Notes: a model not told the origin generated them from the sequence alone. Shown: positions 1 through 51,865, counted from the first letter of the stretch. The stretch is DNA of 64,000 nt from Deltaproteobacteria bacterium (GCA_029261815.1 JAJDAQ010000098.1:95781-159780), one strand, 5' to 3'. Numbers and translations: made by a program.

Positions 1-540
1 CTCCGTCGCGACGTCCCCGGCGATCTGCTGGAAGCCGGTGTCTGGCGCGGGGGTGTACCGATCATGATGCGCGCCATCTTGCGGGCATATGACGTGACCG
101 ATCGCGTCGTCTGGGCAGCCGATTCCTTCGCGGGTCTCCCGAAGCCCGATCCGGACAAGTACCCGGCCGACCGCGGGTTTGATCTCTCGATGTGGAAGTC
201 GCTTGCCGTCCCGCTCCCCAAGGTCAAGGAGAACTTCGCCCGATTCGGCCTCCTCGACGATCAAGTGAAATTTCTCGAGGGATGGTTCCGGGACACACTT
301 CCTACGGCGCCGATCGACGCACTTGCCGTGATGCGTCTCGACGGTGATCTCTACGAATCGACGATGGACGGGCTCGTCCACCTCTATCCGAAGTTGTCGC
401 CCGGAGGCTTCGCCATCATCGACGACTACTACAACGCCCCCCCCTGCAAACAGGCCGTGGACGACTACCGGTCAACGCATGGGATCGAAGAAGAGATCGT
501 GACCGTCGACTGGTCAGGCGCCTACTGGCAGAAGCGCTGA
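1..540 (+). CDS. TylF/MycF-type O-methyltransferase (macrocin-O-methyltransferase family), 5'-truncated by window edge
   Basis: Frame is open from base 1 (LRRDVPGDLLEAGVWRGGVPIMMRAIL...); VWAADSFAGLP and RLDGDLYEST...IIDDY motifs typical of TylF family. Confidence 0.85.
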   Translation, partial: LRRDVPGDLLEAGVWRGGVPIMMRAILRAYDVTDRVVWAADSFAGLPKPDPDKYPADRGFDLSMWKSLAVPLPKVKENFARFGLLDDQVKFLEGWFRDTLPTAPIDALAVMRLDGDLYESTMDGLVHLYPKLSPGGFAIIDDYYNAPPCKQAVDDYRSTHGIEEEIVTVDWSGAYWQKR

Positions 541-558: not shown

Positions 559-2595
559 TCAGTCTCCGCGGCCCGGTGCCGCTGAGGCGGCCTCCTCCAG
601 GCCGATTCCGAACCATGCGACAGCGAGCTCACGCGGATCCGTCGATCCCGGAATAACATCGGTCGGACGACCGACATAGCCGTACTCGAAACGGATCACA
701 TTTCGCCCTCCCTTGAGATGCTCTCGGGGAAGCGTGACGGAATAGCGGTTCCGACCCGGGTCGAGGGCCAGATCGTGAACGGGCGTACCGTTCAGCCGGA
801 TCGTGATCGTCTGCTCGGTGCCGTCGCGGAGATCGAATGGCAAGCAGTCGAGATTCAACGTGATGTCGCTTGCCTTGCCAAACCGGCCGACGAGAACACT
901 CGCCGGGCCATCACTCCAAAGGATGTTTCCTTCCGGATCATTCCAGCCCGACTCCAGCGCACGGGCTTGCCGATTGTTTCCGATCTCCAGAGTCCAGGGG
1001 AGAGACAGCGCGCGTGCGCGCGGCGTCCCGCTGACGAGCAGCGGTGCGATGAAACCGGCGAGTGCTTCACCCGCGATCGCATTCCCGCGCGCGTTGAAGT
1101 GCGGATCCTGCCGGTGGTAGAGGTGCCGGCTGCCGTCCGGAAGCGCCGGAACCGAACGCAAGGCCGGAAGGAGATCGAGAACCGGAATGTCATGCTCCGT
1201 CATCCACGCCGTCACCTGACGTTGCGGGCGATCGCGCTCCATGGGAATGGGGCTCCCTTCCTGCACCGCGCGCCAGAGCCCGTCCTCGACCTGGAACACG
1301 TCGGGGATCAGGACGAACGCAAGGGGGAAGTCCGCCGCTGCCGCGTCCAGCGCATCGAGGGCATCCTCGAAACCTTCATAGAGGGCCGGGTCGTCGACGC
1401 CGATCCGATCGGCGTTGCGGCGTTCGAGTTCCAGGAAGACTTCGGCACCGAGACTTGGCGGTTCGCGGAGCGGGTCCGCCAACCACGGATACTGCTCGCC
1501 GGGCGCACCTCCATTCGGCGACACGGCGTCGAGCGCATCTTCGGAATCAATCCAGTTCTGGATCTCTGCGCGCGACAACACCACCAATCGACGCGCGAGC
1601 ATCGCGACCAACGAGATGTCCGCGTCATGCCAGCGGGGCGGCGCGCGATAGGGCCTCGTCGCCACGATGTCCCTGCCGACGAATAGATGCACGATGACAA
1701 GATCCGGATCGAGCGGAATCGCTTCTGTCTTCAACAGGTGTCGATAGTCGTAGGGATCGATTCCGGCGGATCCCATGTTGTAGACCTGGACGCCCGGCAG
1801 GCTCCGCTCGGCCGCGGTCGTAAAATGGAACGCATGCGGAACCACGCCGTAGCTGAACGAGCCGCCGATGCTGGCGACCAGCGGACCCGAGAGTTCGGAT
1901 CGAGGGAGAAACGGCGAGTCGAAGTGGCCGCCTTCGTTGATCAGGGTGTCGAAGCGTCGGTCGCCGTGCAGGAGGCGACCCGCGTCGCGTCGTATCTGGG
2001 AGTCGCTGTCTTCATTGATCAGGATCGGAACGCCGACGAACGACGACACCACGCGAAGCGTCAACTCCAACAACACGAGGCTCGCCACCGCGTTCATTGC
2101 CAGTACGTCGAGGCGACGCGCCCTCGCTGAGACCTTGAGCTGTCGCCGGCGCTTCAACCGCTGGTTCGCGAACAGGAATCCACCGTAGCCGAGCGCTGCC
2201 ACGATCTCGGCGACGATCGGATGAACCACCCGATAGGGCCCTGTGAAGGTCTCGGGCGCAGACAGGACGAACAGACTGAAGACGACGCAGGCGGCCGCGC
2301 CGTACACCGCGACCCGCACCCGAAGGGAGCCGTTCACCTCGGTGCCCGACCGCAGCCAGCGCTGGAAGGTCCGCACCATGTCCCAGCTCCCGGCGACGGC
2401 GATCGCGACAACGAGTACGAGGAGAAGCACGCTGGCTCCGCTGACCTCGACCTCGCCAAGAACCGGCGCGAGCACTTCGCCGAGCAGCTCCTCGACGAGT
2501 GCCCGCTGAAGCCAGACCTCGAACGCTGTCGCGACGGTCAGTGCCACGCCAATGGCGTGGATCACGAGCAGGATCACGGGAACGAGACGAGACAC
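559..2595 (-). CDS. Multi-TM SGNH-hydrolase-like protein with C-terminal beta-sandwich (paralog A, divergent active site)
   Basis: 678 aa; several N-terminal TM segments; ASIGGSFSYG, LFVGRDI, DPHFNARGN blocks; C-term LNGTPVHDLALDPGRNRYSVTLP; clear paralog of 2631..4646 and 5952..7928. Confidence 0.8.
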   Translation of the reverse strand: MSRLVPVILLVIHAIGVALTVATAFEVWLQRALVEELLGEVLAPVLGEVEVSGASVLLLVLVVAIAVAGSWDMVRTFQRWLRSGTEVNGSLRVRVAVYGAAACVVFSLFVLSAPETFTGPYRVVHPIVAEIVAALGYGGFLFANQRLKRRRQLKVSARARRLDVLAMNAVASLVLLELTLRVVSSFVGVPILINEDSDSQIRRDAGRLLHGDRRFDTLINEGGHFDSPFLPRSELSGPLVASIGGSFSYGVVPHAFHFTTAAERSLPGVQVYNMGSAGIDPYDYRHLLKTEAIPLDPDLVIVHLFVGRDIVATRPYRAPPRWHDADISLVAMLARRLVVLSRAEIQNWIDSEDALDAVSPNGGAPGEQYPWLADPLREPPSLGAEVFLELERRNADRIGVDDPALYEGFEDALDALDAAAADFPLAFVLIPDVFQVEDGLWRAVQEGSPIPMERDRPQRQVTAWMTEHDIPVLDLLPALRSVPALPDGSRHLYHRQDPHFNARGNAIAGEALAGFIAPLLVSGTPRARALSLPWTLEIGNNRQARALESGWNDPEGNILWSDGPASVLVGRFGKASDITLNLDCLPFDLRDGTEQTITIRLNGTPVHDLALDPGRNRYSVTLPREHLKGGRNVIRFEYGYVGRPTDVIPGSTDPRELAVAWFGIGLEEAASAAPGRGD

Positions 2596-2630
2596 CGACG
2601 GAACCTAGCCCAAGGACTCCCTGCAACGAG

Positions 2631-4646
2631 TCATGGCGTCGGCAGCGCGAGCCCATTCGACGGGGACCGGAAGCTGATCTCGTACCAGGCGACCGCGAGG
2701 ATCCGCTCGTCGGCGGAGTTCTCGAGCACTTCGCTCGGTTGATACGTGTCGCCGTACTCGAAGCGCACCACGTTCCGCCAACGCCGGAGATGCTTCCGCG
2801 GCAACGTCACCGAATAGCGATTGCGTCCTGGTGCCACGACAACCTCGGCGACGTTGGCGCCATTCAACAAGACCTTGATCTGCTGTGCCTTGCCGTCGGG
2901 ACCAACGAACGGCAGACAATCGAAATCCATCGCGACGTCTGCGCCCGGGCTCAGCGGCGCAATCAGCTCGGAGCTGGGACCCGCACTCCACGAGACACCG
3001 TCCTCGGCCGGGTGCCATCCGCGAACGAGGCGCTCGGAAGCGGCTTCGCTCGAGAGATCAATGCTGAATGGCAGTGACACGCGCGAGACCCTTGGTGTCC
3101 CAGTCTCGAGAAGAGGTCCTACGAATCTGGCCAGTGCCTGCCCTGCGACCGCGTTCCCCCTGGCATTGAAATGCGTGTCCCGCAGGTGATAGAGATGCCG
3201 ATCGCCGTCTTCGAGAGGCTCCACAGCGCGCAGCAGCGGCAGGAGATCGAGCACCGGAAAGTCGTGGGCCTCGAGCCAAGCGAGCGTTCGTTTCTGCGGA
3301 AGATCCCGGTCGTGCGGCCCTTCGAGCCGGGCGGAGACCCTGGCCCAGAGCGCGTCCTCTACCTGGAATTCATCCGGGATCAGCACGAACGCGAGCGGCA
3401 CGCCTTCCGCCGCTTCGGCGAGCGCCGCGAGAGAGGCCTCGAAGCGGTCGTAGAGGCCGATATGGTCGGACGTGATCTGCACGGCGTTCCGAAAGGAAAC
3501 GTCCTCGTACACGTCCTCGCCGAAACTCGGAACCTCGAGCGAAACATCCGCCACCCAGGAGAAATCCTCGGGCGCTCGCTCGTGCGCGGCGGCCTCTCGG
3601 TCTTCTGCCGCGCGCCGCAGGACGCCGAGCCGATGCCACAGGATGCCCGCCTTGTAGCTGTCCGCATCCGCCCAGCCGGGTTCCGCGCGGTAGGGAGGGC
3701 CCGCGGTGATGTCATTGCCCATGAACAGCTGGACCACGATCAGATCGGGGTCGAGGGGGAGCGCCTCTCCTTCGAGCAGGTGCCGATAGTCCCCCGGACC
3801 GGTCCCGGGGAAACCCATGTTGTAGACGCTCACGTCCTTGAGGGCGCGCTCCGCGACGGTCGAGTAGTGATAGGCGTGGGGGGTTGTTCCGTAGCTGAAA
3901 GAGTCACCGATGCTGATGACGAGTCGACCCGAAAGCTCCGAGCTCGGAACGAATGCGGTGTCGTAGTGCCCTGTTTCGTTGACCGGGAAGCCCCATTTGA
4001 GCTGCCCTGCCGGCAGGCGCTCCGCATCCCGACGAATCCGCGACGAACTCTCGTTCGTCACCAGGAGCGGGATCGGCACCACGGCCGAGATCACGCGAAG
4101 TGCGATCTCGAGCACGACCAGGCCAAGCACTGCGTTCATCGCAATGACATCGAACGCACGTCGCAGCCGCCCCGGGACCGGCTGCCGATCCGGTGCGATC
4201 CGCGATGCCCAGCGGAGGTAGGCCGCGTAAGCAGCGCTGCCCAAGATCTCCATCAGGATGGGAAACTGGACGCGGAACGGACCGGTGAACGTCTCGGGTT
4301 CCGAGAACACGAAGACGCCGGCACCCACACAGCCCACGACGACGTAGGCGAGAACCCGGAGCCGAAGCCCGACATGGGTTTCCGCGATCCCGCGGCGCCA
4401 GCGCCGAAGTGTTGCCACGATCGTCCATGCGGATGCGATCACGGTCATCGTGACCAGAACAAGGAGGGCCCCCACCAGGACCGGAACGACGAATGCACCA
4501 GCGCCACCGATCAATGGCAGCAGGGCGCGATCGATCAGGAGTTGCAGCAGAGGGCGCTGGACCCATGCCACCCACGCCGTCCCCACCGCGAAAGCAAGGC
4601 CGATTCCGTGGATCAGAACGAAGAGCGGCGCAGCGATGCGAGACAC
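2631..4646 (-). CDS. Multi-TM SGNH-hydrolase-like protein with C-terminal beta-sandwich (paralog B)
   Basis: 671 aa; ISIGDSFSYG, LFMGNDI, DTHFNARGN blocks; same architecture as neighbours. Confidence 0.82.
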   Translation of the reverse strand: MSRIAAPLFVLIHGIGLAFAVGTAWVAWVQRPLLQLLIDRALLPLIGGAGAFVVPVLVGALLVLVTMTVIASAWTIVATLRRWRRGIAETHVGLRLRVLAYVVVGCVGAGVFVFSEPETFTGPFRVQFPILMEILGSAAYAAYLRWASRIAPDRQPVPGRLRRAFDVIAMNAVLGLVVLEIALRVISAVVPIPLLVTNESSSRIRRDAERLPAGQLKWGFPVNETGHYDTAFVPSSELSGRLVISIGDSFSYGTTPHAYHYSTVAERALKDVSVYNMGFPGTGPGDYRHLLEGEALPLDPDLIVVQLFMGNDITAGPPYRAEPGWADADSYKAGILWHRLGVLRRAAEDREAAAHERAPEDFSWVADVSLEVPSFGEDVYEDVSFRNAVQITSDHIGLYDRFEASLAALAEAAEGVPLAFVLIPDEFQVEDALWARVSARLEGPHDRDLPQKRTLAWLEAHDFPVLDLLPLLRAVEPLEDGDRHLYHLRDTHFNARGNAVAGQALARFVGPLLETGTPRVSRVSLPFSIDLSSEAASERLVRGWHPAEDGVSWSAGPSSELIAPLSPGADVAMDFDCLPFVGPDGKAQQIKVLLNGANVAEVVVAPGRNRYSVTLPRKHLRRWRNVVRFEYGDTYQPSEVLENSADERILAVAWYEISFRSPSNGLALPTP

Positions 4647-4692
4647 GCGCGAACGGTAGCCCAGCGCGCACGGCCCCTGTCAGAGACCCGCC

Positions 4693-5955
4693 CTACCGAG
4701 GCGTCGCGATGGGCGTCGATACCGCTCGTCCGAGGGTCGAGAAGACGCACCGCGCATCACCATCGACGGGTCGGCCGAAGCGGCCATCCGCCGGGACCGG
4801 GAAACAACGCCGTGGCCCGACCTCGAATGCGGTGTAGAACAAGACCGCTCGATCGGGCTCCACGACCACGGTCGGTGCCATCAGGCCCCAGCTATCGAAG
4901 CGCCCTTCACGGGGTCCGAGAATCGCCATCGGTTCCGACCACGAGACGCCGTCGCGTGAGTGCGACCAGGTGATGACTTCGTCCCGGTGGAATTCGCCGA
5001 ACACCAGGCTCGACGCGAACAGATGGTACGCGCCATCGATCCAGTGCATCTCCGTGATGTTCGCACCCTCGACCAGTCCGCTCTCCGATCGTGAACGAAG
5101 CTTCCAATCCAGATCGAAGTCTGCACGACCGAGGGCCACACCCTGGATCTGCTGGCCCGGCGCATCGATCGCGGCCTCCGGCTTCGCCAGCCCGAGACCC
5201 ACGAAGTAGACCTCGATCCCATCCTCCCGAACCACGACGCTCGGCTCCTGGACGTTGTTGTCGAAGCGTCCCGGGCGTTCGTCGTGGGGAACCAGCGGCT
5301 CTGGCCGACGCTCGAACGTGATGCGTTCATCCATCATCGCCGCGCGAAGGCTCCGTCCCGCCAGGGCGAGTTCGGCGATCCCGATCTGGAAGCGCTGATA
5401 CCGTTTGACACCATCCAGGTCGCCGTCACCCGTATACGTCAAGTACACGGTGCCTCCGCGACGAAACACGAAGGGCGTCTCGATCTTCGTCGAATCGAAT
5501 CCGGAAGCCGGAGGAACGACGACCGGCGTCTGCCGATAGCTCCAGCTCAGTCCGCGGTCGGCGGAGAATGCGTAGGCCACCGTTCCGATCGTCTCGAGGA
5601 TGTTGCACGCGCCCGGTGCCGCCGGATCCCAGCTCACCTCATAGCGCTCGCCTCGACGACAGAAGATGGCGGTGTGAAAGAGGTGATAGCCCTCCTCATC
5701 TGCGTAGACGTGCGGATCGAACACGACCGTCGGGAGACCCCTTGCGCCGGCATCGACTACGGGCGCGGAGTTGGGATGTCGCAGGAAGGTCGGGAAGAGC
5801 GGCGGTGCCGCGAGATCCTGGGCTTCGGGTGCCGCTGGCACATAGGGAGGGACTTGAGCGCAAGCCTGCAAGAAGAAGATCCCCAGGAACGCGACACGGG
5901 CGAGCCATGATGCCCGGCTGCGCGGGCGGACCGGTTCCCGGCAAGATCGGTTCAC
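4693..5955 (-). CDS. Beta-propeller glycosyl-hydrolase-like (GH43/GH32/GH130-like fold) lipoprotein
   Basis: 420 aa; N-terminal signal with lipobox-like FFLQAC; DPHVYADEEGYHLFHTA and repeated YHLF/VYLTY/W blades; start codon overlaps the upstream gene stop by 4 bp. Confidence 0.65.
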   Translation of the reverse strand: MNRSCREPVRPRSRASWLARVAFLGIFFLQACAQVPPYVPAAPEAQDLAAPPLFPTFLRHPNSAPVVDAGARGLPTVVFDPHVYADEEGYHLFHTAIFCRRGERYEVSWDPAAPGACNILETIGTVAYAFSADRGLSWSYRQTPVVVPPASGFDSTKIETPFVFRRGGTVYLTYTGDGDLDGVKRYQRFQIGIAELALAGRSLRAAMMDERITFERRPEPLVPHDERPGRFDNNVQEPSVVVREDGIEVYFVGLGLAKPEAAIDAPGQQIQGVALGRADFDLDWKLRSRSESGLVEGANITEMHWIDGAYHLFASSLVFGEFHRDEVITWSHSRDGVSWSEPMAILGPREGRFDSWGLMAPTVVVEPDRAVLFYTAFEVGPRRCFPVPADGRFGRPVDGDARCVFSTLGRAVSTPIATPR

Positions 5956-7928
5956 GGTGCCTCCGCGTGCGGAGCCACCGCACCGACGGCCTCGCCGGTA
6001 CGATCGAAACTGATGTCGTACCAGGCGACCGCCAACTCGCGCATATCATCGGCTCCCTCTTGATGCTCGGCTGGCCGCCGCGTCCACGCATAGCGAATCG
6101 CCAGGTGCGCAGGAGCCGGTCCCAGCCGGTCTCCGGGTAGCCGAATCTCGACCGTGCTCCGTTCGGGAGGCAGCACGACTTGTTCCAGGCGGCTTCCGTT
6201 CAGATCGATCGCGATGCGCTGCGCGGGCGCATCCGGGTCCGGATACGGTTGGACGTCCAACCGCATCGTGACATCGGTGGGACCCGAAACCTGCGCGCGA
6301 AAGGTCGTCACCGGGCCGTCGCTCCAGAGATGCGTCGGCTCGGGCTCCTGCCAGCCATGGCGCAGGGTCAACTCAGCCGGCGTGCGGGAGAAACGCGGCC
6401 CCGTCGTGTTGGCAGTTCGTCCCTGAGCGGACGGGCCGGACTCCAGAATCTCGGAGACGAAGCGCGCCAGTTCCGTGCCGGACACCGCATTCCCACGCGC
6501 GTTGAAGTGCGTGTCCTGGAGATGGAAAACATGCTGTCGGCCGTCGGCCAACGGCTCGACGCTCTCGAGGACCGGGAGAAGATCGAGGAAAGGCACTCCG
6601 CGCTCCGAGAACCACCGGGCGAGTTCGCGCTGGGGACGATCGCGAACCAGTGGCTGATCGCTCGCGCCGCGGACCGCTTCCCAGATGTGGTCCTCCACCT
6701 GTGCCTCGCTCGGGATCAGTACGGCGGCGACCGGGATGTCCCCAACGGCTTCGAGGATCCGTTCGAAATTTCCGAAGAACCGCTCATAGATGGCGTCGTC
6801 CGGCCCACACACTGCGACCATGTTGCGCGTTTCGATCCCCAGAAAGATGTCTTCAGGGAAGGACGGCTGCTCCAGCATCGGGTCGTCGAACCATACGAAG
6901 TGCCGTAAAGGGTCCTCTTCCGTCTCCGCGTCGGCAGGCCTCGGCACCGCGTCATCGCTCGACTTCCGTACCTTCCACAGCGTCGCGGCCCGCTCCAACG
7001 CCACAGGCAGCAAGTACCGCTCACGTTCGTACCAACGCGGTTCACTCGTTTCGGGTGCCGTATCCGACAGATCGTTTCCGAGGAAGAGCTGAATGACGAT
7101 CAGGTCGGGGTCGAGCGGGACCGCCTCATCCTGCACGAGATGCAGGTAGTCGACGGGGCCTGTCCCGGGAAAGCCCATGTTGTAGATCTCGACATCGGGC
7201 AGCCGCTGCTCGGCCAGCGTGGTGAAGTGGCGTGCGTGCGGAACCACCCCGTAGCTGAAGGAGTCCCCGATACTGGCGACGAGCACGGAACGTTGGAGGC
7301 GCGCAGTGGCGACTTCCGTGTCGTAGTGGCCGCGTTCATTCATCGGGAAGCCGACATGGAGGGTGCCGGGCGCGCGACGATCCGCAGAGCGGCGAACCTC
7401 TCCCGAACTTTGTGCGGTGACCAGCAAGGGTGTCGACCAGAACACGGCGACGCCTTGTAATGCGACCTCGGCCAACACAACGAGCAGCACGACATTTCCC
7501 AAGGTGACATCGGCCATTCGACGCAACCGCTGTGGAAGGATGCGACGGAGCCATGGGAGCGCGGCTTGAATCGCGAGTGTCACACCGTAGAACAGTACGG
7601 CCGTGATCGAGGCCGCCTGCCAGAACCTTACCGGCGGCGTCACGACGAGATAGGCCGTGCACAGGAACGCCGCATAGAGCGTGATTCGCCACCGTAGGGC
7701 TGCGCTCGGCAGTGGGTCGTCGCGCCGGAACCGCCGCCACGCTTCGACCAGCGCTGTCGCTGCCCAGATCAGGACACCCACGAGCAACACGAGCAGAAGC
7801 CAGGCGACCGGGCCGTAGACAATCACGAGGACTTCCCGGACCACCACCGAGAACAGCAGGGTGACCAGGCAAGCCAACATGCCGATGCCATGGAGAACGA
7901 CGAATGAAAGCGAGACAGCCCGGCGCAC
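5952..7928 (-). CDS. Multi-TM SGNH-hydrolase-like protein with C-terminal beta-sandwich (paralog C; first gene of operon)
   Basis: 658 aa; ASIGDSFSYG, LFLGNDL, DTHFNARGN; TM-rich N terminus. Confidence 0.82.
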   Translation of the reverse strand: MRRAVSLSFVVLHGIGMLACLVTLLFSVVVREVLVIVYGPVAWLLLVLLVGVLIWAATALVEAWRRFRRDDPLPSAALRWRITLYAAFLCTAYLVVTPPVRFWQAASITAVLFYGVTLAIQAALPWLRRILPQRLRRMADVTLGNVVLLVVLAEVALQGVAVFWSTPLLVTAQSSGEVRRSADRRAPGTLHVGFPMNERGHYDTEVATARLQRSVLVASIGDSFSYGVVPHARHFTTLAEQRLPDVEIYNMGFPGTGPVDYLHLVQDEAVPLDPDLIVIQLFLGNDLSDTAPETSEPRWYERERYLLPVALERAATLWKVRKSSDDAVPRPADAETEEDPLRHFVWFDDPMLEQPSFPEDIFLGIETRNMVAVCGPDDAIYERFFGNFERILEAVGDIPVAAVLIPSEAQVEDHIWEAVRGASDQPLVRDRPQRELARWFSERGVPFLDLLPVLESVEPLADGRQHVFHLQDTHFNARGNAVSGTELARFVSEILESGPSAQGRTANTTGPRFSRTPAELTLRHGWQEPEPTHLWSDGPVTTFRAQVSGPTDVTMRLDVQPYPDPDAPAQRIAIDLNGSRLEQVVLPPERSTVEIRLPGDRLGPAPAHLAIRYAWTRRPAEHQEGADDMRELAVAWYDISFDRTGEAVGAVAPHAEAP

Positions 7929-7987
7929 GCGACCAAGCTAGCAGAGGCAGATGATCCGAATCTCGCGCCGCGGCGGAGCGAGCCCCT

Positions 7988-8443
7988 CTATTCGCGTCGG
8001 CCCAGCGTGACTTTTCGCACGTCGATCGGCTGGCCCGTTCGCTCATCGACGACGCGCGGCGAGACGGGATCCCCAGTCTCGCGGTCGAAGATCTGGAGCG
8101 GCGGTTCGCCGCCATCGGCCCAGAGCCAGTCCTCTCCGAAACGCCACATTGCGGCCAGCACAGGGTAGAAATCCCGGCCCTTCTCGGTCAACACATACTC
8201 GTACCGCTCGGGCCGCTCTTCATACAGCCGACGTTCGAGCATGCCTGCGTCCACCAGCTTCGCGAGGCGCTGGGCCAGGATCCCACGCGAAAGACCCAAC
8301 GCGCTTTGAAACGACTCGAATCGGCGGTGGCCAAGAAAGGCCTCGCGCATCAAGACCGGTGTCCATGAATCGCCCATCAGCCCGGTCGTCCGGGCGATGG
8401 GGCAAGGCGCGTCTGCGAAGCGGTCAGCTCTCATCTCAAGCAA
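7988..8443 (-). CDS. HxlR-family winged-helix transcriptional regulator
   Basis: CPIARTTGLMGDSWTPVLMREAFLGHRRFESFQSALGLSRGILAQRLAKLVDAGMLERR is typical HxlR; overlaps 3' end of molybdoenzyme gene by 8 bp. Confidence 0.9.
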   Translation of the reverse strand: MLEMRADRFADAPCPIARTTGLMGDSWTPVLMREAFLGHRRFESFQSALGLSRGILAQRLAKLVDAGMLERRLYEERPERYEYVLTEKGRDFYPVLAAMWRFGEDWLWADGGEPPLQIFDRETGDPVSPRVVDERTGQPIDVRKVTLGRRE

Positions 8444-10691
8444 TCACTTCGAGCTGCGCGCGAACATGCTTGTGCCACGGGGTGAGGGCCAACCAGTCGC
8501 GATCCTCGGCCGATGTGAGTTCGTTCGGCGGTGTCCCGTGCACACGGCGCACGCCATCGGCGTCCGGGTACTCGAGCCCGTGGCCGTTCGGCAGGGTGAT
8601 GTGCCCGTCGCGCAAGGTATCATTGACTTCAACAACGGCTTCCGCCGCGCCCCGCTTCGTCCTGATCCGAACGCGCCCGCCCGTTTCGATGCCGAGCCGT
8701 GCCGCATCGCCAGGACTCATTCGCAGCGCGCCTTCGGCATCCTTCTTGCGCCAACCAGGGCTTCGGAAGATCGTGTTCGCCGTACTCGTCCTTCGCTCAC
8801 CCGCCGCGAGGATGAACGGATAGTCATCCGTGAGGCGCGGCGGCGCCTCGTCCGCCAGTTCGGCAAGCTCGGCGACGAGTTCAGGAATGACGAGCTGGAT
8901 GCGACCGTCGTCTGTGCCAATACGCTCCAGTGTCACGTCGTACGGGTCTGAGGTGACCACGACGCCGTTGGCATGGGCCAAGATTGCGCGGAAGACCGCG
9001 TCTCCCAGGACCGGCCCTTCACCATCGAACCCTGCGCGTTTCACGGACGCAGTTTCTTCCGCTGCGAGCGTCTGCGCCGCACCCCAGAGGAGTGCTGCAC
9101 CCTCGAAGCCATCATCGAGAGAGCGTCCAAGCGTCTCGTAGAGCACGACCGGCAAGATTGCGGCGAGATCCGGCCGACTTCCCATCATTCCGAGGAAGGC
9201 CATGCCGAACTTCTCAAGGCCTTCGTTCGCCGCCTCGCGCAACACCGTCAGGTCCTCATCCGTGTAGGCGCCCAGCGCGCGACAGAGGCGACTGTGGATC
9301 TCGGGCTCTGTCAACGTGCCATCCGCCACTGGGAAGAGCGGGTGGCGCAACTGAAAGGTGTGATCGGGGAAGCCACCGCCGAAGAACGTGGTCTCGACCT
9401 TCTCGTACTGCGAAGCCGCGGGCAGGATGTAATGCGCGTGCTTGGCGGTCTCGGTCATCGCTACATCGATGACGACCACGCATTCGAGCGCGTCGAGGGC
9501 CTCGCGCATCCGGGGACTGTCTGCCAGCGAGTGTACGGGGTTGCCGCTTTCGATGAACATCGCGCGGAAGCGATCGGGATGGTCCGTCAGGATCTCCTCT
9601 GGAATCGCGTTGCACGGAATCAGGCCGGTAATGATCTTGTGCCCGCCCACCGGCGATACCTTGTTGTCCTTTCCCTCCCCGATGAGTTTTCCGACGTGCG
9701 TCGGGAGGTTCATCGCACCCTTGAGGCCCAGTCCGCCACGCAGCACGTAGAGCAGTTTCTCGAGGTAGGAGTTCAGCGTGCTATGCGGGGCCATCTCGAT
9801 TCCGAGATCTTCGAGGACCGAGACACTCTCCGAGGAGCCGATCAGTCGCGCCGCCTTTCGCACATCCGCTTCGTCGACCCCGGCGCGGCCACAGTAGTCG
9901 GCCACCGGGACCTCACGCAGGACATCGAAGAGTTCCTTGCCGTCTCCTGCCCGCTCCGACAGGAACGCCTCGTTCGTGAGACCCTCATCGAGCATTACCT
10001 TCAGCATGGCCGCCAGCACGAAAGCATCCGTCCCGGGAATCACCTGGAGGAACACGTCGGCAAGATCCGCACTTTCCGTGCGGCGCGGATCCATCACGAT
10101 CATGTGCCGGTTCGGGTCCTTGGCGATCGCTCGCAGCGCCGGCCGGGCGCGCTCCCAGCCGTGTGATTGCCACGGGTTCTTGCCGATAAAGACGGCGACC
10201 TCGGCATTCTCGAAATCAGGATGCGGTCGTCCACCAAACATCTGTCGTTCGACCCAGAACTCGCCTGTCTTCTCCTGGGCCAGGGCGTTCGACGCGTACC
10301 GCATGTCGAGTGCGCGCCGGGTGGCACCGCTATATGCGCCGCCCAGGTGGTTGCCCTGCCCTCCACCGCCGTAGTAGAAGATCTTGCTGCCACCGTGGGT
10401 ATCGCGAATCGCACCGAGCTTCGCGGCGACTTCACGAATTGCCGTGTCCCAATCGATCGCTTCGAAACTGCCGTCGGCCCGGCGTCGAAGCGGGGACGTC
10501 ACGCGGTCCGCGTGATTCTGATAGTGGTCGAGGCCCGCGGCCTTCTCACACGTGTACCCGAGCGATCGCGGATTGGTCTTGTCGCCCTTGATCTTGACGA
10601 AATGCCCATCGGCGACCTGCACCTGCAGTCCACAGTTGGTGCTGCACAGGATGCAGGACGTGCTCTTCCACTCGGCGGGTTCGGCGGCCAT
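8436..10691 (-). CDS. Molybdopterin-dependent oxidoreductase (4Fe-4S, bis-MGD family)
   Basis: N-terminal CxxCxxxC...C (SCILCSTNCG...GYTCEKA); GKNPWQSHG and C-terminal molydopterin-binding region (GGRVRIRTKRGAAEAVVEVNDTL...NGHG). Confidence 0.9.
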   Translation of the reverse strand: MAAEPAEWKSTSCILCSTNCGLQVQVADGHFVKIKGDKTNPRSLGYTCEKAAGLDHYQNHADRVTSPLRRRADGSFEAIDWDTAIREVAAKLGAIRDTHGGSKIFYYGGGGQGNHLGGAYSGATRRALDMRYASNALAQEKTGEFWVERQMFGGRPHPDFENAEVAVFIGKNPWQSHGWERARPALRAIAKDPNRHMIVMDPRRTESADLADVFLQVIPGTDAFVLAAMLKVMLDEGLTNEAFLSERAGDGKELFDVLREVPVADYCGRAGVDEADVRKAARLIGSSESVSVLEDLGIEMAPHSTLNSYLEKLLYVLRGGLGLKGAMNLPTHVGKLIGEGKDNKVSPVGGHKIITGLIPCNAIPEEILTDHPDRFRAMFIESGNPVHSLADSPRMREALDALECVVVIDVAMTETAKHAHYILPAASQYEKVETTFFGGGFPDHTFQLRHPLFPVADGTLTEPEIHSRLCRALGAYTDEDLTVLREAANEGLEKFGMAFLGMMGSRPDLAAILPVVLYETLGRSLDDGFEGAALLWGAAQTLAAEETASVKRAGFDGEGPVLGDAVFRAILAHANGVVVTSDPYDVTLERIGTDDGRIQLVIPELVAELAELADEAPPRLTDDYPFILAAGERRTSTANTIFRSPGWRKKDAEGALRMSPGDAARLGIETGGRVRIRTKRGAAEAVVEVNDTLRDGHITLPNGHGLEYPDADGVRRVHGTPPNELTSAEDRDWLALTPWHKHVRAQLEVIA

Positions 10692-10768: not shown

Positions 10769-10906
10769 ATTCATGTGCAACTGCAGGCACCTGGAGCCTT
10801 CCGGGCCCGGGACCTTGACCATTGCTTGACCGATCCGCCGATCGCCTTCCGGACGGCGACGCCCCTTCTAGAATCGAGGTTCGGTCGCCATCGGAAGGAG
10901 CTGGAA

Positions 10907-13900
10907 ATGCTGGACTGGATTGGAAACCGCCGCGGACGGTTCATCGCGGGGCTCGTCGTCGCCTGGTTGGCCGCCGCTGCGCCGGCCAGCGCAATCACGG
11001 CATTCGCCAACTGGAACGGCGGCAGCGGCATCTGGTCGAACCCCGTCCAATGGGCCATTGGCTGCCCCCAGGTTCCGCCGCCGACCACGCCCGGCAACAC
11101 AGCGTCGTGTTTGTTCACCGTCAACGTGTCCGGCCCGGCCAGTGATGTCCAAGGCGACGTGGGCGCCACGATCTCGGTCCTCAACCTGAATTCGGGTGCC
11201 GAACTGTCGATCGCTACGAGCCTGACGTCGTTGATCGACACGTCGATCGGAAGCCAGAGCACCCTCACGGTCGGGCCCGTCGCCAGCCTCGTCACCGGCC
11301 TGCTGACCAATCAGGGAACGCTCGACCTCGGCCTACTCGCGGGCGTGACTGCCGTGACCGTGGTCAATGGGGGGACGATCGACAGCACCGGCGGCTCACT
11401 CCTCGTGGGGTCGATCGAGAACCTCTCCGGCGCGACGATCGACATCGGCCCCGGACTCACGACGCTCTCGACCGCCGTCCTCGTCAACGAAGGGACAGTC
11501 AACCTCTCGGATCCCGCATCGACGCTCTCGGCCTCCCTGTCGTTCTTCGAGTTCTCCGGAAGTGGGGAAGTCGTTCTCGCGCATGACACCGCTTCGCTGA
11601 GTGCACTCGTCAACCTCGGCAACCTCGGGGGCCACACGATCCGCGGCACGGGCAGCGTGGTCAGCAGCACGATGGTCAACCAGGGAGACGTCCTCGCGGA
11701 CAGTGCCGGAGACACGCTCCACGTCATCACCGGCTTCCTCGATTCGACGGGCGACCTACGCGCGCTCGGCGGAACACTCGATGTGGATGCGGTCGACGTG
11801 GTGACATCGGGAACGGTCGAAGCCACGGGCGCGACCGGCAAGTGGAAGTTCGACGCGACGAATCTCGACAACGACGGGCTCATGGTGGTGCGCTCGGGCG
11901 CACGCGGCGAGATCAAGAATGCCAGCGTCGACAATGGCGGTGGCATCCTTCAAGCAGATGGCGGCTCGATCGCCTTGGAGGACGTCGGCATCGAAGGCGG
12001 CGTCATCACGTCGAACAGTGGGGGCTTCGTCACGATGGCGGGCTCGGGGGCGATTCGCGACCTCACGAACAGCGCGGACTTCCGGTTCCTGCCCGGAAGC
12101 GTGACGTCGATGATCGGGACGATCACCAACGACGGTGTGATGACGGTGCCCGATGGCGCGGCGGTCCCCGGCGCTGGCTTCTTCGTGACCCTCGACGGTA
12201 CGGGTCGGCTCGTTCTTGCGGGCGACAACGCGACCTTCGGGTCGACGACAACGACGACGTGGACCCAGGGTGCGGCCCACACGATCGAAGGCTTCGGAAC
12301 GTTCCAGGGCCTCGTGATCGACAACGGCAATCGGATCGTCGCGAACGTGGCCGGGCAACGGCTCCGCGTCACCGCTCCGGATGGTGGAACCGGCCCGCGC
12401 CTCATCAATCGAGGCAGCCTCGAGGCGATCCAGGGCGGCATCCTCCGCGTCGAGAACAGCGACATCGACAACACGTCAGCCGTCGTTCTCGCAGATACGG
12501 GTTCCATCGTCGAACTCGATCAGGTCCGACTTCGCGGAGGCAGCCTGACCGGGGCCGGCGAGATCCAGTGGAGCGGACTCGGGGCCCTCCTGGACGGTAC
12601 GGACGGCAGCCGCGTCCAGGGCACCGTCAACCAGTCTCTTCTGTCCGGCTCCCAGGTCGCGTTCTCGGGCTTCGATAACGACGGAACCATCATGGTCGGG
12701 GACGGCGCGATCGCGTTCACCACCGGAGTGGCCCACTTCACGGGTGCCGGGTCGTTCTCACTGGACGGGCCCGGGGCCATTTTCGGGTCGGCAGGCACGA
12801 GTCAGTACGGCCAATCGGCAACGCACCGCATGGACGGCGAGGGACTCATCCAGGGCTTCGGCTTCCACAACGAAGGAACCCTTTCCGCCGACCGCGCGGG
12901 AAAAACGCTGAACTATCAAGTCTCGAACGGAACGGCGAGCGCGAGCACCCAGAACGACGGTCTGTTCGAAGCCACGGGCGGCGGCACGCTTGCGATCCAA
13001 AGTGCGCGCATCGACAACTTCGGGACGATTCGCGCCGACGCCAACTCCCTCGTGACGGTCGCCAACTCGGAGATCCGCGGCGGCACCCTCGAAGGTGCCG
13101 GCGAGGTCCAGTGGACGGGAAACAGCGCACTCCGTGAGGCTCCGGATGGAAGCCGGGTACAGAGCACGGTCGACCAATCTGTCCTTGCGGGCTCGCAGGT
13201 CTTGTTCGAGGGCTTCGACAATGAGGGGACGGTCTCCGTAGAAGACGGTGCCATCGCATTCACGTCCGGCGTCGCCCACTTCGTGGGAACGGGATCCTTC
13301 TCGCTCGAGGGCCCCGGCTCCACGTTCGGCTCCGGTCTCACGAGTCAGTATCGACAGTCTGCCGCGCACCGCATCGGCGGGGAGGGGTTGGTCCAGGGGT
13401 TCGCATTCCACAACGAGGGAACCCTCTCCGCCGACCGCGCGGGAAGAACGCTGAGCTACCAGGTCTCGAACGGAACCGCGGGCGCGAGTACCCAGAACGA
13501 CGGTCTGTTCGAAGCCACGGGCGGCGGCACGCTTGCGATCCAGAGTGCGCGCATCGACAACATCGGAACGATTCGGGCCGACGCGTCTTCGCTCGTGACG
13601 TTCCGCGACACGGCGGTCCGCGGCGGAATCCTGGACGGTGTTTCCGAGATGCAATGGTTCGGCAGCTCCCGCCTGGTCGAGTCTGCACTCGACGGCAGCG
13701 CCGTCCAGTCTCTCGTGGATCAGCGACTCCGCACAGGGACATCGCTCTTCGTGACCAAGCTCCAGAACGACGCGACGATCACGATCGAGGATGGCGCGTC
13801 CCTGCTCCCGGGCAGCCAGATCGATCCGGTTTCCGGAAGCGGCGAGATCGTTCTCGACGGCCCCGGCGCCTTGCTAGGCGTCTCTGGCGCCAGCCATTGG

Positions 13901-14968
13901 ACCCAGGGTGCCAATCACGAGATCCGGGGCGAGGGTCGCGTGGAAGGCCATTCCCTCGCGAGCGCGGGAACGATCGCGGCCGACCGTGCGGGCCGCACAC
14001 TGCACCTCACAGTCCCGAACCTGACCAACACCGGCACGGTGCGCGCGACAAATGGCGGCACCCTCGACGCGACGGCGGTTTTCTATAACGACGGAGGCGT
14101 CATCGAAGCCGACACGGGCTCGGTCATCCGCATGGACGCGAGCGCGGTCTATGGCGGCCTGTTGACTGGCGCCGGCGAGATCCAGTTCCTCTCAACCGGC
14201 CTGATCGCGGCAGCTGTTGGTGGTAGCGGCGTTACGAACGAGAGCACCCTGCGAATCATCGGACCCAACGTTCGGGTATCAGACACGTTGACGAACGATG
14301 GACACATCCTCGTCGAAGACGGCGCACTCCTGAACCCGGACTCCAACGGCTTTCCGCGTACCCTGATCGCCGGTGGCGGTACCGTTTCGCTCCTTGCGGC
14401 CGGGAGTCAGGCGGGCTCCGGGCTTGGACTGTGGACGAATGGTCCTGGACATACGGTCGAAGGCGTCGGCACCATCGGCGCGAGTGGATTCCAGAACAAC
14501 GGCGTGCTCTCGCCCGGTCTGGCAGGTGGAGACGAGACCGCGGCGCTTCGCATCGCGGCGAACGCGGTGGGCTTCGGTGGCACCTCTCACCTCGACATCC
14601 AACTCGGAGGATCGCAGGCCGGAGTCAGTCATGACTTCATCCAGGCAGACACGACGCTGCTCGACCTCGGAGGCGTCCTCGCATTGAGCTTCGTCGACGG
14701 GTTCGCGCAGTCGGCACAGGCCTCCGATGTCCTGACGATCCTCACGGCCCTGAGCCCGCTGACGCAGTCGTTCAGCAATGTGTCGAATGGGGGGCGCCTC
14801 GACTCCATCGACGGCAGGGGCTCGTTCCTCGTCCACTATGGGGCCGGCAGCGTGTTCGATGCTGCGTCGGTCGTGCTGAGCGACTTCGTCGCCCTACCGG
14901 AACCGGGCACGATTGCGCTCCTCACGATCCTCGTGCTCGTCGTGCGGCGGCGTCAGGCGGCGTCGTAG
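10907..14968 (+). CDS. Large secreted repeat protein (beta-helix-like N-x-G-T repeats) with C-terminal PEP-CTERM-type sorting signal
   Basis: Preferred start at 10907 (MLDWIGNRRGRFIAGLVVAWLAAAAPASA signal peptide, GGAAGGAG upstream) rather than ORF-track 10775; C-term LPEPGTIALLTILVLVVRRRQAAS; internal 181-aa repeats. Confidence 0.85.
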   Translation: MLDWIGNRRGRFIAGLVVAWLAAAAPASAITAFANWNGGSGIWSNPVQWAIGCPQVPPPTTPGNTASCLFTVNVSGPASDVQGDVGATISVLNLNSGAELSIATSLTSLIDTSIGSQSTLTVGPVASLVTGLLTNQGTLDLGLLAGVTAVTVVNGGTIDSTGGSLLVGSIENLSGATIDIGPGLTTLSTAVLVNEGTVNLSDPASTLSASLSFFEFSGSGEVVLAHDTASLSALVNLGNLGGHTIRGTGSVVSSTMVNQGDVLADSAGDTLHVITGFLDSTGDLRALGGTLDVDAVDVVTSGTVEATGATGKWKFDATNLDNDGLMVVRSGARGEIKNASVDNGGGILQADGGSIALEDVGIEGGVITSNSGGFVTMAGSGAIRDLTNSADFRFLPGSVTSMIGTITNDGVMTVPDGAAVPGAGFFVTLDGTGRLVLAGDNATFGSTTTTTWTQGAAHTIEGFGTFQGLVIDNGNRIVANVAGQRLRVTAPDGGTGPRLINRGSLEAIQGGILRVENSDIDNTSAVVLADTGSIVELDQVRLRGGSLTGAGEIQWSGLGALLDGTDGSRVQGTVNQSLLSGSQVAFSGFDNDGTIMVGDGAIAFTTGVAHFTGAGSFSLDGPGAIFGSAGTSQYGQSATHRMDGEGLIQGFGFHNEGTLSADRAGKTLNYQVSNGTASASTQNDGLFEATGGGTLAIQSARIDNFGTIRADANSLVTVANSEIRGGTLEGAGEVQWTGNSALREAPDGSRVQSTVDQSVLAGSQVLFEGFDNEGTVSVEDGAIAFTSGVAHFVGTGSFSLEGPGSTFGSGLTSQYRQSAAHRIGGEGLVQGFAFHNEGTLSADRAGRTLSYQVSNGTAGASTQNDGLFEATGGGTLAIQSARIDNIGTIRADASSLVTFRDTAVRGGILDGVSEMQWFGSSRLVESALDGSAVQSLVDQRLRTGTSLFVTKLQNDATITIEDGASLLPGSQIDPVSGSGEIVLDGPGALLGVSGASHWTQGANHEIRGEGRVEGHSLASAGTIAADRAGRTLHLTVPNLTNTGTVRATNGGTLDATAVFYNDGGVIEADTGSVIRMDASAVYGGLLTGAGEIQFLSTGLIAAAVGGSGVTNESTLRIIGPNVRVSDTLTNDGHILVEDGALLNPDSNGFPRTLIAGGGTVSLLAAGSQAGSGLGLWTNGPGHTVEGVGTIGASGFQNNGVLSPGLAGGDETAALRIAANAVGFGGTSHLDIQLGGSQAGVSHDFIQADTTLLDLGGVLALSFVDGFAQSAQASDVLTILTALSPLTQSFSNVSNGGRLDSIDGRGSFLVHYGAGSVFDAASVVLSDFVALPEPGTIALLTILVLVVRRRQAAS
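12536..13078 (+). repeat. Repeat unit 1 of 543-bp (181-codon) tandem repeat in PEP-CTERM protein gene
   Basis: Starts at codons for GGSLTGAGEIQW; 3' half nearly identical to the following unit. Confidence 0.8.
13079..13621 (+). repeat. Repeat unit 2 of 543-bp tandem repeat
   Basis: Starts at GGTLEGAGEVQW; shares GACGGTCTGTTCGAAGCCACGGGCGGCGGCACGCTTGCGATCCA (12956 and 13499, exactly 543 bp apart). Confidence 0.8.
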
Positions 14969-49663: not shown

Positions 49664-51865
49664 ATGCGACACCTCGCGCTCGCCCTGCTCAGCCTGGTCC
49701 TTCTTCAGCCTGGGAATGCCTGGGCCCAGGAACCGGATGGACCCCGAATCGGCCTCGTGCTCTCCGGCGGCGGCGCCCGCGGAATCGCCCACGTCGGCGT
49801 CCTGAAAGTCCTCGAAGAGCTCCAGATTCCGGTCCACTTCGTCACCGGGACCAGCATGGGCGCGGTCATCGGCTCGCTCTACGCCGCCGGCTACTCACCA
49901 GCCGAGTTGGAAGAGATCATCACGACCACGGATTGGCCCGATGCCTTCGAAGACAACACCGCTCGCCGGGACCTCTCCTTCCGACGCAAGGAAGACGACC
50001 TCAACTTCCTGACCTCGGCCAGGTTCGGAATTCAAGAGGGCGGGATCGCGATTCCGGCTGGCTTCATCCAAGGACAGAAGCTCAACCTGCTCCTTCGTCG
50101 GTTGCTCATCCGAACCGCGGGCCTCGAGAGCTTCGACGCGCTCCACCTCCCGTTCCGCGCCGTTTCGACCGACCTCGTGGATGGCAGCGAGGTCGTCCAC
50201 GCGAAGGGGGACGTCGCGACCTCGGTTCGCGCCAGCATGTCGATTCCGGGCGTTTTCCAACCCGTTGCAGTCGACGGTCGCCTTCTCGTCGACGGGATGT
50301 TGGTGAACAACCTTCCGATCGGGCTCGCGCTCGATCTCGGCGCTGACGTCATCATCGCCGTGGATGTCGGAACGCCCCTGCGTCCGCTGGGCGAACTGAA
50401 CGACGCGGTCGCCGTTGCCGACCAGGTACTCACGATCGCGACCGACCGGATGGCCGAGATCCAGCGCCAAAAGCTACGGGACGGCGACATCCTCTTGACA
50501 CCGTCGCTCGCCGAGATCGGCGCGGCCGACTTCGAACGCGGCAGTGAGATCATTCCGATCGGCGAAGCCGCTGCGCGCGACGTCGCTTCTCGCCTGTCTC
50601 GTTTCGCTGTCTCCGGAGCGACGTGGGACGCTCATCTTGCACGCCAGCGACACGGTGCAGAGGAGCCCCTCGTCATCGATCGGGTCGAATTCGTCAATGA
50701 TTCGACCGTGAGTGATGACCTCATCTTGTCCCAGATCGAGGAACAGGCGGGGAAGCCTCTCGAGATCGCTCAGTTGGAAGAAGATATCGCGGCGATCCAC
50801 GGCAGCGGCACCTTCCAGCGGGTCGACTATGCCGTGCACCAGGACCGCGGCGAGACCGTCCTCCGCGTCGAAGCCCACCAGAAATCATGGGGGCCCCAAT
50901 ATCTACGCATCGGTCTGAACCTCGAAGAGAACTTCGACAACACCAGCATCTACAACCTGGCGTTGAACTACACGATCAATCCGGTCAACTCGCGGGGTGG
51001 CGAATGGCGCAACGAACTCCAGATCGGGAACACGATTCGCGTGTTTTCCGAGTTCTGGCAGCCGCTCGATCGAGAGAGCCGCTGGTTCGTCGCGCCTGGC
51101 ATCTCGTTCTCCCGAACGACGGTCGCGTTGTACGAGGGCGACGACCGCACCGGGGAATTCTCGCTCCGACGAACGGAGCTGGGGCTCGACGTCGGTCGAC
51201 AGCTTTCCAACTGGGGAGAGATTCGCGCCGGCATCCGCTGGCAGGACGGACGCGCGGGACCCCTGGTCGGTGCCCGAACGTTTCAAGGGACGGAAGTCGA
51301 CGGGGGCGGCTTCTTCCTTCGCCTGGCCGCGGACACCCTCGATGCCGCGGACTATCCGACCGAGGGGGTGTTCGCGCGAGCGACACTCGCAGCACTTCGC
51401 GACTCGCTCGGCTCAGGGGCGGACTCGGAACTCATCCAGCTCCAGGTTGCCTCCGCCCACAGCTTCGGCCACCAGACGATTGTCCTCTCGGTCAGTGGCG
51501 TGACGCAGTTCGGCGACGGGATCGATCGCATCGAAAACGTGTCGCGCATCGGAGGATTCCTCAACCTCTCGGGACTCGACCGCGGACAACTCTCCGGTGC
51601 GCATTCCATCGTGGCTCGGGCGTTGACCTACCGGCAGCTCGCGGACTTCGGCGTTCTGAACTTCCGCTTTCCGGTGTATCTCGGCGCCTCGATCGAACTG
51701 GGAAATGTCTGGTCGAGCCGGCGTGAGATCTCTGTCGGCTCAGCGATCCTCGCCGGCAGCGTGTTTCTCGGGTGGCGCACGCCGCTGGGTCCCCTCTACG
51801 TCGGTTACGGCGTCGCCGAAGGCGGACAGGACTCGGCCTACCTCTTCCTCGGGAGAACGTTCTAG
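49664..51865 (+). CDS. Patatin-like phospholipase with C-terminal BamA/POTRA-type outer-membrane barrel (type Vd-like)
   Basis: LVLSGGGARGIAHVGVLKVLEEL, GTSMGAVIGSLYA, VDGMLVNNLP; barrel-like C-term ending FLGRTF. Confidence 0.92.
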   Translation: MRHLALALLSLVLLQPGNAWAQEPDGPRIGLVLSGGGARGIAHVGVLKVLEELQIPVHFVTGTSMGAVIGSLYAAGYSPAELEEIITTTDWPDAFEDNTARRDLSFRRKEDDLNFLTSARFGIQEGGIAIPAGFIQGQKLNLLLRRLLIRTAGLESFDALHLPFRAVSTDLVDGSEVVHAKGDVATSVRASMSIPGVFQPVAVDGRLLVDGMLVNNLPIGLALDLGADVIIAVDVGTPLRPLGELNDAVAVADQVLTIATDRMAEIQRQKLRDGDILLTPSLAEIGAADFERGSEIIPIGEAAARDVASRLSRFAVSGATWDAHLARQRHGAEEPLVIDRVEFVNDSTVSDDLILSQIEEQAGKPLEIAQLEEDIAAIHGSGTFQRVDYAVHQDRGETVLRVEAHQKSWGPQYLRIGLNLEENFDNTSIYNLALNYTINPVNSRGGEWRNELQIGNTIRVFSEFWQPLDRESRWFVAPGISFSRTTVALYEGDDRTGEFSLRRTELGLDVGRQLSNWGEIRAGIRWQDGRAGPLVGARTFQGTEVDGGGFFLRLAADTLDAADYPTEGVFARATLAALRDSLGSGADSELIQLQVASAHSFGHQTIVLSVSGVTQFGDGIDRIENVSRIGGFLNLSGLDRGQLSGAHSIVARALTYRQLADFGVLNFRFPVYLGASIELGNVWSSRREISVGSAILAGSVFLGWRTPLGPLYVGYGVAEGGQDSAYLFLGRTF

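Follow-up and report, generated by a model that had tools for sequence, protein, structure and literature searches.

The main known examples of ester editing on envelope glycans are AlgX/AlgJ, PatB and the acyltransferase-3 (AT3)-SGNH proteins. Three genes (p1, p2 and p3) in a 64,000-nucleotide stretch of a Deltaproteobacteria bacterium (GCA_029261815.1 JAJDAQ010000098.1:95781-159780, hereafter the window) encode proteins with an SGNH domain between five transmembrane (TM) helices and a C-terminal beta-sandwich. These are read here, tentatively, as periplasm-facing, membrane-tethered carbohydrate esterases for a glycan that is made next door.

The best structural match is RiCE17 (RiCEX, PDB 6HFZ/6HH9; GDSL-2/CE17), an SGNH+CBM35 acetylmannan esterase (PMC9487903) in which an SGNH domain is likewise joined to a beta-sandwich, there a carbohydrate-binding one. 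RiCE17 is, however, a gut enzyme that is soluble and lacks the five TM helices, and at 10–12% identity the likeness to CE17-like (SGNH + CBM) proteins is at the level of structure only, no sequence relation being detected. AlgX and AlgJ (PF16822) share an SGNH-like fold, a DxH in block V and association with a polysaccharide locus, yet their motif order is circularly permuted to H-S-G-N and block III has Tyr rather than Asn (PMC9487903); they have a single TM helix or a signal peptide. Here the order is S-G-N-H, the Asn is present and there are five TM helices. Matches to PF16822 are under its cut-off (16.5–22.3 bits against 26.5; E 1e-4 to 7e-3). Membership of AlgX/AlgJ was rejected on motif order, and these proteins are not of that type, which an earlier, sequence-only reading of the locus had named for comparison.

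SGNH-AT3 acyltransferases (OatA, OafB; PF19040) also fuse a multi-TM part to a periplasmic SGNH domain, but there the TM part is an AT3 domain, while here it consists of five helices only; no match to PF01757 (AT3) is found in the SGNH proteins or on the contig. GDSL_2 (PF13472) has the canonical SGNH order and the GDSF and GND motifs, differing in its DxxH from the DxH seen here and lacking the five-TM part and the tail. Its matches (p3, E 2.5e-7, 31.8 bits; p2, E 8.6e-6, 26.8 bits) are below the cut-off of 32.9 bits. The tail resembles the carbohydrate-binding domain of BcsB in structure, without significant sequence relation and in a different protein context. No Pfam or NCBIfam entry is above cut-off for the SGNH proteins or the tail, for which BcsB is the sole Pfam hint (E 0.31).

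Architecture and active site of the SGNH paralogs

The genes and their parts are as follows, in window positions.

5952..7928, minus strand: SGNH paralog p3 (658 amino acids (aa), GTG start; catalytic S223, G252, N285 and D472/H474 all present)
7440..7925, minus strand: five TM helices of p3 (aa 2-29, 41-69, 76-96, 103-130 and 133-163; AlphaFold2 model, hydropathy and positive-inside pattern)
6435..7424, minus strand: SGNH domain of p3 (profile, AlphaFold2 model and Foldseek)
6000..6386, minus strand: C-terminal beta-sandwich of p3, CBM/BcsB-like (model and Foldseek)
4693..5955, minus strand: propeller-type lipoprotein gene (five glycoside-hydrolase-propeller-like repeats of GH32/GH43/GH130 type; no TANNNT start)
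2631..4646, minus strand: SGNH paralog p2 (671 aa, GTG start; GDS, GND and DTH motifs intact)
3096..4064, minus strand: SGNH domain of p2 (profile)
2667..3050, minus strand: C-terminal beta-sandwich of p2
559..2595, minus strand: SGNH paralog p1 (678 aa, GTG start; GDS to GGS, GND to GRD; probably impaired)
1024..2022, minus strand: SGNH domain of p1 (profile)
592..978, minus strand: C-terminal beta-sandwich of p1
1861..1863, minus strand: p1 codon 245, Gly (block I Asp in every other family member examined)
1672..1674, minus strand: p1 codon 308, Arg replacing the block III oxyanion-hole Asn

All four open reading frames (ORFs) of the sequence-only reading were found, co-directional on the minus strand. 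Its 4-bp overlap between p3 and the lipoprotein ORF (GTGA) and its 35-bp gap between p2 and p1 are correct; the gap between the lipoprotein gene and p2, given as 45 bp, measures 46 bp. End-to-end alignment, profile matches and the p3 model agree with its description of three paralogs of one layout. Identity to p1 is 36–48% in full-length alignment, and profiles for the TM, SGNH and C-terminal parts, which were built from these very proteins, match across the paralogs at E 1e-60 to 1e-175. A fourth, solitary paralog is present in the same genome on contig C149.

The AlphaFold2 model of p3 (16 aligned sequences; mean predicted local distance difference test score (pLDDT) 80, predicted TM-score 0.61) has the order of N-terminal TM helices, SGNH domain and C-terminal domain that the sequence had suggested. 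The five helices lead into the SGNH domain, which extends to about residue 497; residues 500-529 form a low-confidence linker and residues 540-643 the beta-sandwich. Four or five TM helices are detected by hydropathy in most members of the family, and the charges of the loops, with arginines after TM2 and TM4, place the SGNH domain outside the cytoplasm. Foldseek comparison of the model with the PDB bears out the SGNH core, the top seven matches being chains of RiCE17 (E 3e-7 to 9e-7). GDSL hydrolases come next, and the tail is matched by BcsB, the EclA sugar-binding domain and CBM16. The SGNH fold in the model is alpha/beta/alpha, and GDSL hydrolases are matched with a TM-score by target of about 0.55–0.66. 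Sequence searches of the PDB with the whole family and with the tail gave nothing significant, and the tail is fused to no other protein of this genome.

The roles of SGNH motif blocks I, II, III and V have been described (PMC9487903). In p2, p3 and nearly all relatives these blocks are in the canonical S-G-N-H order (GDSF, the Gly of a YNMG-type motif, GND and DxHFN), and the Ser of block I, Gly of block II, Asn of block III and His of block V are retained across nearly all relatives. Block III reads GND in 22 of 24 aligned rows, the others being p1 (GRD) and L048, which was not read. Block V is DxH rather than DxxH, being DTHFN in p2 and p3. Several relatives, as well as the C149 copy, have Asn instead of this Asp, a change that the family therefore tolerates.

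Alone among the 24 sequences, p1 has both GGSF and GRD, with the Ser, the block II Gly and the block V D.H still in place. Without the Asp of block I and the Asn of the oxyanion hole, p1 may be catalytically inactive or impaired. The two losses also fit a decaying or non-functional duplication in which p1 is already a pseudoenzyme and the locus has no specific function, as does the absence of the four-gene set from every other genome searched, including the other genome of the genus that was examined. Decay of this kind is nonetheless highly improbable, given that none of the three frames is broken in 650+ codons, with identities of approximately 37–54%, that each SGNH gene has a promoter-like motif and that the p2 and p3 motifs are complete.

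The adjacent glycan genes and the likely reaction

The cluster that faces p1 ends within the window in one gene.

64..540, plus strand: TylF-type methyltransferase gene, 3' part (profile positions 108-264 of 264), the final gene of the convergent polysaccharide cluster

As had been noticed from the sequence, this gene converges on the SGNH genes; the gap to p1 is 18 bp, and the start of the TylF gene is upstream of base 1. Glycosyltransferases, for which a search just upstream of base 1 had been proposed, are indeed present there (L005), where a Wzm/Wzt-type ABC permease and ATPase, a GT4 and a GT2/GT1 glycosyltransferase, a tetratricopeptide repeat (TPR) protein with an unnamed C-terminal domain, a second GT2 and the start of TylF are found. 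GMC oxidoreductase-like, radical SAM/SPASM, PMT_2 and DUF3604 genes lie still farther upstream on the opposite strand. Homologues of the GT2/GT1 fusion, the unnamed domain and the GT2, at 37–47% identity, are located near an SGNH gene of the family in two gammaproteobacteria (L032 and L038). In these, a carbamoyltransferase gene and an SxtJ gene precede the SGNH gene, with an AT3-SGNH acyltransferase nearby. The unnamed domain ('NDYGEL...LPG', without a Pfam match) is fused to TPR here (L005:14954-17791, C-terminal 390 aa) and standalone in the gammaproteobacteria (L038:18124-19371 and L032:16152-17387), always with the same glycosyltransferases near.

The proposal of carbohydrate esterases is based on the predicted fold, the motif order, the predicted topology and the neighbourhood, with the substrate, the direction of the reaction and the roles of the propeller and p1 inferred. 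The five TM helices would put the SGNH domain of a cytoplasmic-membrane enzyme in the periplasm, where the carbohydrate-binding-like beta-sandwich may keep the polysaccharide near the active site. In p3, Ser223, activated by His474/Asp472 and aided by Gly252 and Asn285, would attack an O-acyl ester on a surface polysaccharide, probably the product of the adjacent Wzm/Wzt-type and glycosyltransferase genes, and the acyl group would be released from it. The propeller lipoprotein may also act on this glycan, by trimming or binding it. The motifs of p2 and p3 are intact, whereas p1, with two motif residues lost, may bind the glycan without catalysis. An envelope-glycan modification locus, as suggested from the sequence, agrees with the adjacent polysaccharide genes; de-esterification is at least as likely as acylation, because the nearest solved architecture, RiCE17, is a carbohydrate esterase with a CBM. 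The gammaproteobacterial loci have a separate AT3-SGNH acylator, which fits a role as remover for the SGNH family member.

Several observations weigh against these proteins being glycan esterases. A different arrangement of the domains makes the whole-query TM-score low (0.20). The beta-sandwich is swapped or lost in most relatives. Glycan genes are not evident around many of the planctomycete copies, so that the association does not hold throughout the family. The solitary fourth copy (L007:4686-6491, 8419-9957 region) is amid flavin monooxygenase-like and other metabolic genes rather than glycan genes. The SGNH genes at this locus face the polysaccharide cluster and are not co-transcribed with it. 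Finally, the fold cannot separate an esterase from a transferase, and the block V DxH is as in the AlgX acetyltransferases.

The DxH speaks for another reading, in which the proteins are acyltransferases that pass an acyl group, from an unlinked MBOAT or AT3 donor or via their own five TM helices, to the exported polysaccharide. Acylation of envelope polymers by MBOAT-SGNH and AT3-SGNH pairs has been described (PMC12148441, PMC9487903), and the genome has three MBOAT matches (contigs C44, C97 and C156) and four AT3 matches. All are off this contig (C98), on which there is no MBOAT or AT3 gene, in keeping with the sequence-only reading, which saw no such partner. The five-TM part is kept across phyla, with R81, E154 and L157 invariant in the family alignment, beyond what a mere anchor needs. 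These residues may instead be structural, since 'LE..LR' in the helix before the SGNH domain may be widespread among membrane SGNH proteins. Transfer to the polysaccharide is rather unlikely, in that no donor gene is linked, the motif order is canonical rather than AlgX-permuted, the closest folds are hydrolases and the gammaproteobacterial relatives have a separate AT3-SGNH acylator. It is a long shot that the conserved five-helix part is a new acyl-carrying module, which would make the protein a transmembrane glycan acyltransferase (or regulated transacylase) complete in itself and in no need of MBOAT or AT3 proteins, with p1 as a catalytically dead glycan-binding partner of p2 and p3.

The convergent arrangement and the copies outside evident glycan loci are also consistent with membrane esterases for lipids or other envelope esters, to which the proximity of the glycan cluster would be incidental; lipases and thioesterases are among the SGNH enzymes (PMC9487903). 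Such a substrate is improbable, as three neighbouring glycan genes recur near the SGNH family in gammaproteobacteria and the tail is like carbohydrate-binding domains by Foldseek. In addition, the gene that overlaps p3 encodes a glycoside-hydrolase-like lipoprotein, and in L034 the SGNH gene is directly followed by that of a BNR-repeat protein.

The putative propeller lipoprotein and transcription

The protein encoded at 4693-5955 has the lipobox LQAC, confirming this part of the earlier description, and five repeats of PxV..GxYxLxxT type (residues 79, 159, 236, 301 and 359). It barely passes the Pfam GH32N cut-off (23.9 bits against 22.1), with GH130 under cut-off. The beta-propeller itself is predicted from sequence, by the repeats and the GH32N match, and the protein may be a five-bladed propeller of glycoside-hydrolase type (GH32/43/62/68/117/130). 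A single-sequence model (pLDDT 33) was discarded as evidence, and a sequence search of the PDB with the lipoprotein gave nothing significant. Across 379 genomes of the phylum the lipoprotein has no relatives at E <= 1e-6, and none are found beside related SGNH loci; the set of three SGNH proteins and a propeller is therefore not a conserved module. A propeller gene accompanies the SGNH family independently at L034:9653-12832, where a BNR_2 repeat protein is encoded directly after an SGNH relative.

Each of the three SGNH genes has a TANNNT-N6-GTG start, which is not found at the propeller gene.

7935..7940, minus strand: leaderless-type -10 motif TAGCTT of p3, 12 bp before the GTG
4653..4658, minus strand: leaderless-type -10 motif TACCGT of p2, before the GTG
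2602..2607, minus strand: leaderless-type -10 motif TAGGTT of p1, before the GTG

A first T 12 bp before the start is the published position for leaderless genes in bacteria (PMC3160421). Among 163 candidate starts from approximately 104 kb of genome, spurious ORFs included, TANNNT ends 6 bp before ATG or GTG in 9 cases, against about 0.7 at any other spacing (P ~3e-8), pointing to widespread leaderless transcription in this organism. Other TANNNT-N6 starts in the window include those at 49664, 25982 and 20072. Scans for Sigma-70 promoters and terminators were no better than shuffles. From the motifs it can be inferred that p3 and the propeller gene are one unit, with p2 and p1 separately started. 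A single four-gene operon is unlikely because all three SGNH genes have their own leaderless-type motif; the operon proposed from the sequence stands for the overlapping pair (5952-7928 and 4693-5955) and probably not for the whole set.

Just upstream of p3 on the same strand, a molybdopterin oxidoreductase gene (8436-10691) overlaps that of an HxlR-type regulator (7988-8443), and read-through from these genes into p3 is possible. Beyond them, on the plus strand (10775-14968), is a gene for a long repetitive secreted protein of approximately 1397 aa with a PEP-CTERM-like tail (PEPGTIALLTILVLVVRRR) and without a Pfam family.

Distribution of the family

A search of the genome contigs with the single p3 sequence gave no matches, an alignment of the four copies being needed. 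Within the same order, full-length copies are present in this genome only, with none in the other genome of the genus examined, and the 379 genomes of the phylum contain one further strong relative (G352). Among the GTDB contigs, the complete or nearly complete architecture is found in Planctomycetota metagenome-assembled genomes (MAGs), in Halioglobus japonicus and in another gammaproteobacterial MAG, with several copies per genome in the Planctomycetota ARS15, Arabian10_MAG_46 and TH-Jun18-114. Among the genomes searched, the combination of three SGNH genes and a propeller was found in this one only, while the SGNH family itself extends over several phyla.

The tail, unlike the conserved five-TM-SGNH core, differs among relatives or is lacking. 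This genome's own copies, L030 and L031 and probably G352 (broken frame) have the beta-sandwich; L032, L033, L034 and L038 carry a different tail and the remaining relatives none. Glycan binding by the beta-sandwich therefore does not characterise the family as a whole. In the tree, which has poor resolution, p1 and p2 are the only copies joined as sisters with support (96/91), and neither p3 nor the C149 copy clearly groups with this pair. The copies are old, being mutually only ~37–54% identical and forming no single supported clade, and a recent amplification in tandem was rejected.

On present evidence this is a coherent, apparently unnamed variant of the SGNH kind, and not a new kind of system. 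The family occurs in Planctomycetota, gammaproteobacteria and this organism's own phylum, with no Pfam or NCBIfam model above cut-off. If the proposed function is true, membrane-tethered glycan esterases (or transferases) with a five-TM-SGNH core and exchangeable tails would be an added class, and p1, p2 and p3 would provide a natural comparison of active and inactive forms.

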